Assembly: GCA_029775925.1 (NCBI GenBank)
Contig: JARVKB010000034.1
Location: forward strand, 1-39,173
Direction: 5' to 3'
Length of the DNA: 39,173 nucleotides
From: Nitrososphaeria archaeon
Lineage (GTDB): Archaea > Thermoproteota > Nitrososphaeria > Nitrososphaerales > JACAEJ01
Shown here: positions 19,453-19,591 of the stretch, one piece after another
Numbering within the stretch: position 1 is the stretch's first letter
Layout: each line of letters opens with the position of its first letter
Translations under genes and position numbers: made by a program
Notes under the pieces: generated by a model
Told to the model about the DNA's origin: nothing
Databases searched by the model: none
The model's input: only the letters and a program-made list of their open reading frames with translations

Positions 19453-19591
19453 CCCGCGGTAGCTCAGCCTGGTAGAGCTTCCGACCCTTACCAAGGGGGA
19501 GATGCTGTAGAGATTTGCTTTGGCAAACCTCGCCAGCCCTACTAGGCACACAGAAACCGGAGTGTCGCAGGTTCAAATCCTGCCCGCGGGA
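19453..19591 (+). tRNA. tRNA-Tyr (GTA) with two introns
   Basis: Acceptor arms CCCGCGG (19453-19459) and CCGCGGG (19584-19590) pair fully, with discriminator A19591 and the C1-G72 pair typical of archaeal tRNA-Tyr. The D arm is GCTC/GAGC and the T arm GCAGG-TTCAAAT-CCTGC. The anticodon loop CTGTAGA is at 19505-19511, separated from both stem halves. Best fit: exon 1 ends at G19483, a 20-nt intron (19484-19503) lies between positions 30 and 31, exon 2 is 19504-19510, and a 45-nt intron (19511-19555) lies at the canonical 37/38 site. Splicing then gives TCCGG-CTGTAGA-CCGGA with a perfect stem and a 74-nt tRNA. CCA is not encoded. The first intron contains a CCCTT/AAGGG hairpin and the second a TTTGC/GCAAA hairpin. 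Confidence 0.9.

Follow-up and report, generated by a model that had tools for sequence, protein, structure and literature searches.

An intron that can clamp the D-loop of an archaeal precursor tRNA-Tyr, and its possible role as a cis-acting H/ACA-like guide

Why does the tRNA-Tyr gene of a Nitrososphaerales archaeon carry two introns, and does the larger of them do more than wait for its removal? The window analyzed here, a stretch of 39,173 nucleotides, contains a pre-tRNA-Tyr(GUA) gene of 139 nt without an encoded CCA (19453-19591, + strand). A sequence-only reading had proposed a tRNA-Tyr with introns of 20 nt at position 30/31 and 45 nt at 37/38, and our data bore out both the gene and its segmentation. 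The Rfam tRNA model (RF00005) matched the window at 19453-19591 (+) with 44.8 bits, and a cloverleaf-plus-BHB search, which considers combinations of bulge-helix-bulge (BHB)-like introns whose removal leaves a cloverleaf, ranked the removal of a 20-nt segment following position 30 and a 45-nt segment following position 37 first among 122 solutions. The exact introns are 19484-19503 and 19511-19555 (both +), and the spliced tRNA-Tyr from this search comprises 74 nt with every stem paired, an anticodon loop CTGTAGA, and an anticodon stem of 5/5 pairs, the perfect anticodon pairing that had been claimed. Both introns have the features of BHB introns, namely a complete 4-bp central helix and two 3-nt bulges with the cuts within the bulges: the non-canonical intron at 30/31 combines the central helix CUUC/GGAG, which includes one G-U, with a 5-bp inner helix and the bulges CG^A and AU^G, and the canonical intron at 37/38 has the central helix CUGU/ACAG with the bulges AG^A and AA^A. 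In a shuffled-intron control (20,000 trials), each single 4-bp central helix arose in about 2.3-2.4% of trials and both together in 0.05%, and the inner and central helices of the 30/31 intron never occurred together in 20,000 shuffles.

ARAGORN did not detect a tRNA-Tyr gene at 19453-19591 in the window, and the gene was not among the 35 matches of a genome-wide RF00005 search. Its acceptor end, C1-G72 with discriminator A73, fits what we take to be the archaeal tRNA-Tyr identity. The possibility that this copy is a pseudogene beside a normal tRNA-Tyr, raised in the sequence-only reading, was rejected since the assembly of the window's genome (G000), 96% complete, yielded no second tRNA-Tyr(GUA); locus L259 was ruled out as a second copy by its G1-C72 end. 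Among Rfam families, only tRNA stood above chance at the locus, which disposes of another RNA family. That the locus is one intact tRNA-Tyr(GUA) gene, interrupted by a BHB intron at 30/31 and another at 37/38, is nearly certain in our view. Taken alone, a two-intron tRNA-Tyr is another case of an already known intron type.

The non-canonical intron had also been taken to inform lineage and enzyme type, and both expectations agreed with the genome. By the ArgD-like protein encoded beside the tRNA (best full-length match 85%, in CALLJF010000032.1), the window falls among Nitrososphaerales/Nitrososphaeria MAGs, which come nearest of the named genomes, and G000 belongs to the order Nitrososphaerales. 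Archaeal housekeeping genes lie around the tRNA (window 5362-38250), encoding ArgH, an ArgD/LysJ-like transaminase, an archaeal non-phosphorylating GAPDH, malate dehydrogenase, GatA, GatB, a DEAD/DEAH helicase, and a B12-radical SAM protein. For the expected broad-specificity endonuclease, G000 encodes two PF01974 splicing-endonuclease proteins (L088 and L089), apparently one catalytic and one structural: L088 retains the GPGIDHAP motif seen in catalytic subunits, the solved splicing endonucleases closest to it being the Sulfolobus-type 2cv8 (1.9e-45) and 3p1z, and L089 lacks the catalytic histidine. Judged from their sequences, the two proteins fit an alpha2-beta2 arrangement predicted to be able to cut non-canonical sites, and alpha2-beta2 endonucleases are associated with non-canonical introns in the available part of PMC4090602.

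To place the introns among relatives, we used an order sample of 61 genomes, of which the loci of 58 were passed to the solver and 57 were resolved (G020 was unresolved; G033, G043, and G050 were not submitted). All 57 resolved relatives yielded a clean spliced tRNA-Tyr, and in all 57 the anticodon loop is interrupted at 37/38, including G042 and G056, for which the solver placed the intron at 35/36. These two placements, like those at 44/45 in G238 and at 20/21 in G030 and G047, are probably solver misplacements. From other orders and classes, 93 further loci were collected, 92 were solved, and five were dropped at a score of 50 or less (G067, G353, G323, G230b, and G253b), giving 87 accepted entries and, with the order sample, 144 in total; the 87 are biased towards a 37/38 intron because they were found with a model of that intron.

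The 37/38 intron contains a deeply conserved core made up of a hairpin, CAGC, a 9-nt complement of the D-loop, and ANA about 15 nt after CAGC. CAG is invariant in 53/53 distinct 37/38 introns of the order, the hairpin is conserved in the alignment, and the intron-core model R1 matched 176 of 200 class genomes and 99 of 200 phylum genomes (overlapping samples). In the window, the D-loop segment G15-G22 (GCCTGGTAG; 19467-19475, +), the 5' strand of the putative clamp, can form 9/9 pairs with the covarying intron segment CTACTAGGC (19539-19547, +). The minimum free energy (MFE) fold of the window precursor pairs G15-G22 with CUACUAGGC and G31-G34 (GCTG; 19504-19507, +) with CAGC (19534-19537, +), leaving U35 and A36 (19508-19509, +) unpaired between the two helices below the intron hairpin, which together with G37 spans 19510-19531 (+). 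Direct reading and a survey of spacing place an ACA (19550-19552, +), here within the BHB strand, at 16 nt from the start of CAGC, with another ACA overlapping it at 14 nt. This additional content of the intron, together with relatives carrying up to five introns, was beyond the view of the sequence-only reading.

When the best site was chosen for each intron with one bulged base allowed, 134 of 143 precursors formed 9/9 clamp pairs and the other nine 8/9, with a bulge in 27 of 143 (G266, which has a longer D-loop, was left out of the count). As a best site is selected, we gave more weight to a fixed-column alignment of 52 single-intron precursors, in which 95.9% of cells pair, as against 16.5-50.0% in six slid controls. 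Its covariation score was 0.203 versus 0.162 and was reached by none of 500 shuffles; two weaker measures, two-sided changes (2 pairs) and further pair types (9), were equaled in 29 and 69 of 500 shuffles, respectively. The clamp pairs vary at D-loop position 17 (C-G 109, U-A 33, U-G 1) and position 20 (U-A 101, U-G 20, C-G 17, A-U 4, A-G 1), and where the D-loop changes at 17 or 20 within families f1, f4, f9, f22, f25, and f34, the intron matches in all, with one U-G intermediate. In the order sample, introns formed 493 of 513 pairs with their own partners, compared with a mean of 479.1 after swapping between genomes; none of 5000 swaps reached 493. Control introns, 18 of them drawn by the solver from 21 distinct other G000 tRNA sequences (16 of 38 loci unsolved; several clearly spurious, e.g., variable-arm 'introns' and L259), reached at most 8/9 pairs with the D-loop and at lower strength. 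Of 34 core-negative genomes searched, nine loci were examined: G074 (L290) and G310 (L291) retain, by eye, a degenerate clamp; in G279, G314, and G334, the D-loop is shorter and the clamp is absent; and four loci yielded no tRNA-Tyr. These data suggest, with high probability in our judgment, that D-loop residues G15-G22 and the intron segment CUACYARGC form a conserved clamp before splicing. A literature search for a D-loop clamp and an H/ACA-like layout in the canonical intron of tRNA-Tyr found none.

The clamped fold is incompatible with the D-stem, the anticodon stem, and the cloverleaf; because the clamp crosses the anticodon stem, the 37/38 BHB cannot form alongside it either. After removal of any other introns, the clamped form was computed to be more stable than the cloverleaf with BHB in 121 of 140 precursors (median 3.35 kcal/mol). 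The MFE fold had fewer than seven clamp pairs in 37 of 140, and the clamp was not present in that of G239/L234.

We propose that the clamped precursor could serve as its own modification guide. Before splicing, CUACYARGC would clamp G15-G22, and the release of residues 25-28 from the D-stem allows the 30/31 BHB to form within the clamped fold; given this compatibility, intron 1 would probably leave first or at the same stage. The D-loop:intron helix would be the lower stem with the ANA box next to it, G37 and the intron hairpin the upper stem, and CAGC the 3' guide strand pairing with G31-G34 as the target's 5' flank, so that U35, unpaired in the pocket, would be the target converted to pseudouridine by Cbf5 without aPus7/TruD. 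The RNA would then refold into the cloverleaf, the 37/38 BHB would form, and the intron would be cut out and the exons ligated. As a whole, the modeled chain from two-intron precursor through clamp, cis box H/ACA-like guide for Psi35, and refolding to splicing is tentative, and we place somewhat less than half of our belief in it. The broader proposal, that half-exon, half-intron H/ACA-like guides direct Psi35 in cis phylum-wide and would have allowed repeated loss of aPus7/TruD, seems more doubtful still. The 30/31 boundary was dropped as proof of the precursor fold, since tRNA-Phe has the same site: tRNA-Phe(GAA) of G000 (L020, G000:C23:150451-150548) carries a 24-nt intron at 30/31, so that this site is not peculiar to tRNA-Tyr. 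Its context, TCCG^GCTG, is similar to that in tRNA-Tyr, a sequence likeness that suggests movement of an intron between the two genes.

The position of the ANA box argues for a guide. Among 32 introns (16 families) in which the BHB strand lies further downstream, and in which ANA at the clamp is therefore not needed for splicing, ANA was found 1-3 nt past the clamp in all 32 and at exactly +2 in 24, whereas each of the offsets 4-9 had one in only 4-9 of the 32; G245 and G360 were manually re-anchored for this count. Against a guide, ACA falls on the BHB strand in most introns, where it would be retained regardless. ANA follows CAGC at 14-16 nt in most introns, shorter values coming mainly from an overlapping ANA at +0, in agreement with the archaeal H/ACA ruler of 14-16 nt from ANA box to target position given in the available part of PMC7991803. 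A lower and an upper stem surround the pocket, the former covarying and the latter a conserved hairpin. Of two guide arms, only CAGC:G31-G34 was found, the 3' side of the target running directly into the hairpin; with an invariant exon strand, these pairs leave no room for covariation. Inspection by eye, the only inspection applied to the relatives as well, found no tandem G-A of a K-turn or K-loop in the window hairpin (GAGAUUUGC/GCAAACCUC). With the K-turn/K-loop and the 5' guide arm missing, the element falls outside the archaeal H/ACA definition. CAGC is degraded in several core-positive, aPus7-positive genomes, e.g., G281, G315, G335, G360, and G375.

Archaeal Pus7 normally makes Psi35 of tRNA-Tyr, an H/ACA guide serving in S. 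solfataricus and A. pernix, according to the accessible portion of PMC6313347. PF01142 (aPus7/TruD) was not found in G000 or six other genomes of its family (f1), nor in the six f9 genomes examined, eight of f29, and two of f36. It is missing throughout in 12 of 39 core families versus none of 23 core-negative families (Fisher 0.002, with families treated as independent, which phylogenetically they are not); eight of the 12 are represented by a single genome, and only f1, f9, f29, and f36 by two or more. Across 200 phylum genomes, 16 are core-positive without PF01142, four lack both (G298, G300, G310, and G393), and 83 of 180 aPus7-positive genomes keep the core; because of the latter two groups, the core is not simply a replacement for aPus7, and that reading was rejected. 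In G066, G069, G072, and other f19-f22 genomes, TruD/Pus7 matches are split into two pieces within a single open frame and lack the central part of the profile, which may reflect either a shortened or a divergent aPus7.

The clamp itself could be the whole function. As a folding checkpoint without guided modification, it would hold the 5' half off the D-stem, let non-canonical BHBs form, impose an order on intron removal, and keep the unspliced pre-tRNA out of the L-shape. Consistent with this, the clamped fold is computed to be more stable and, in the window, accommodates the 30/31 BHB, and the 22/23 and 30/31 introns sit at the two edges of the clamp and of the G31-G34 helix. However, 58 of 144 entries keep the core without any other intron, the 30/31 intron of tRNA-Phe occurs without a clamp, and CAGC and the ANA spacing are left unexplained; a checkpoint alone appears credible to us but on balance doubtful. 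Alternatively, the 37/38 intron, once excised, could target the D-loop of mature tRNA-Tyr in trans, serving as either an antisense or a guide RNA; this would predict the same covariation. Such an RNA could hardly distinguish several other G000 tRNAs with related D-loops, and the adjacent CAGC and hairpin form a continuous fold in cis, both of which speak against this improbable route. The plainest view, ordinary BHB introns with no further function and a D-loop complement inherited by chance, draws on the facts that such archaeal tRNA introns are known and that both BHBs are complete, but a 9/9 clamp of the window's strength arose in 0.1% of shuffled introns and the compensatory changes recur in six families; it is already disfavored, and we give it very little credence.

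The cis guide reading has partial counterparts in known systems. The tRNA-Trp intron of Haloferax and Pyrococcus is a box C/D guide, and both it and the Tyr intron would guide modification of their own anticodon region, whereas the proposed modification in tRNA-Tyr is pseudouridine; a box C/D guide was rejected for 19511-19555, as boxes C (RUGAUGA) and D (CUGA) are both missing. In Sulfolobus solfataricus, Psi35 of pre-tRNA-Tyr is H/ACA-guided, and an Aeropyrum guide has been predicted (Muller 2009 as cited in the available parts of PMC7991803 and PMC6313347). Target, ANA box, spacing rule, and weak or missing aPus7 activity are common to that system and ours, whereas here guide and target would be one molecule, with the D-loop giving half of the lower stem. 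Eukaryotic Psi35 formation in tRNA-Tyr by Pus7 concerns the same nucleotide at the precursor stage and needs the intron (PMC11408192, in part), but relies on a protein-only enzyme whose aPus7/TruD homologue is missing here. If true, the guide reading would explain the long retention of one tRNA intron across an archaeal phylum and, next to the C/D intron of tRNA-Trp, supply a second guide encoded in an intron; the old question of why the tRNA-Tyr intron is kept would then lend itself to reconstitution.

Among the 144 tRNA-Tyr entries, 58 have the 37/38 intron alone, 59 have an intron at 30/31, and the number of introns reaches four in ten entries and five in two, which makes tRNA-Tyr an intron hot spot in the phylum. 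The five-intron genes, G017/L075 (200 nt) and G362/L207 (216 nt), belong to different classes and share the sites 9/10, 30/31, 37/38, 53/54, and 59/60 (9/10 and T-arm boundaries may slide by one or two bases); either the set is ancestral or introns entered the same preferred sites repeatedly. As far as the available text of PMC8450103, PMC4033280, and PMC3293823 goes, archaeal tRNA genes have up to three introns, and that of PMC11291895 describes multiple introns in Asgard tRNA genes and states no maximum; a literature search for archaeal tRNA genes with four or five introns found no report in the portions accessible. Such genes, which gene finders easily miss, thus exceed the maximum of three stated in these sources. 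The non-canonical BHB tRNA introns of Thermoproteales and Thaumarchaeota share with ours the BHB geometry, sites in several arms, and an alpha2-beta2 endonuclease, but the maximum given for them in the same accessible texts is three, as against four and five in the tRNA-Tyr relatives here. A tRNA-Gly(GCC) of G000 (L263, G000:C29:86263-86370) has apparent introns at 37/38 and 53/54, the latter a T-arm site also used in tRNA-Tyr relatives. The 22/23 D-arm introns of L083, L109, L079, and L112 carry a short clamp-like copy (GCCAA/ACCAA) that would compete with the 37/38 clamp.
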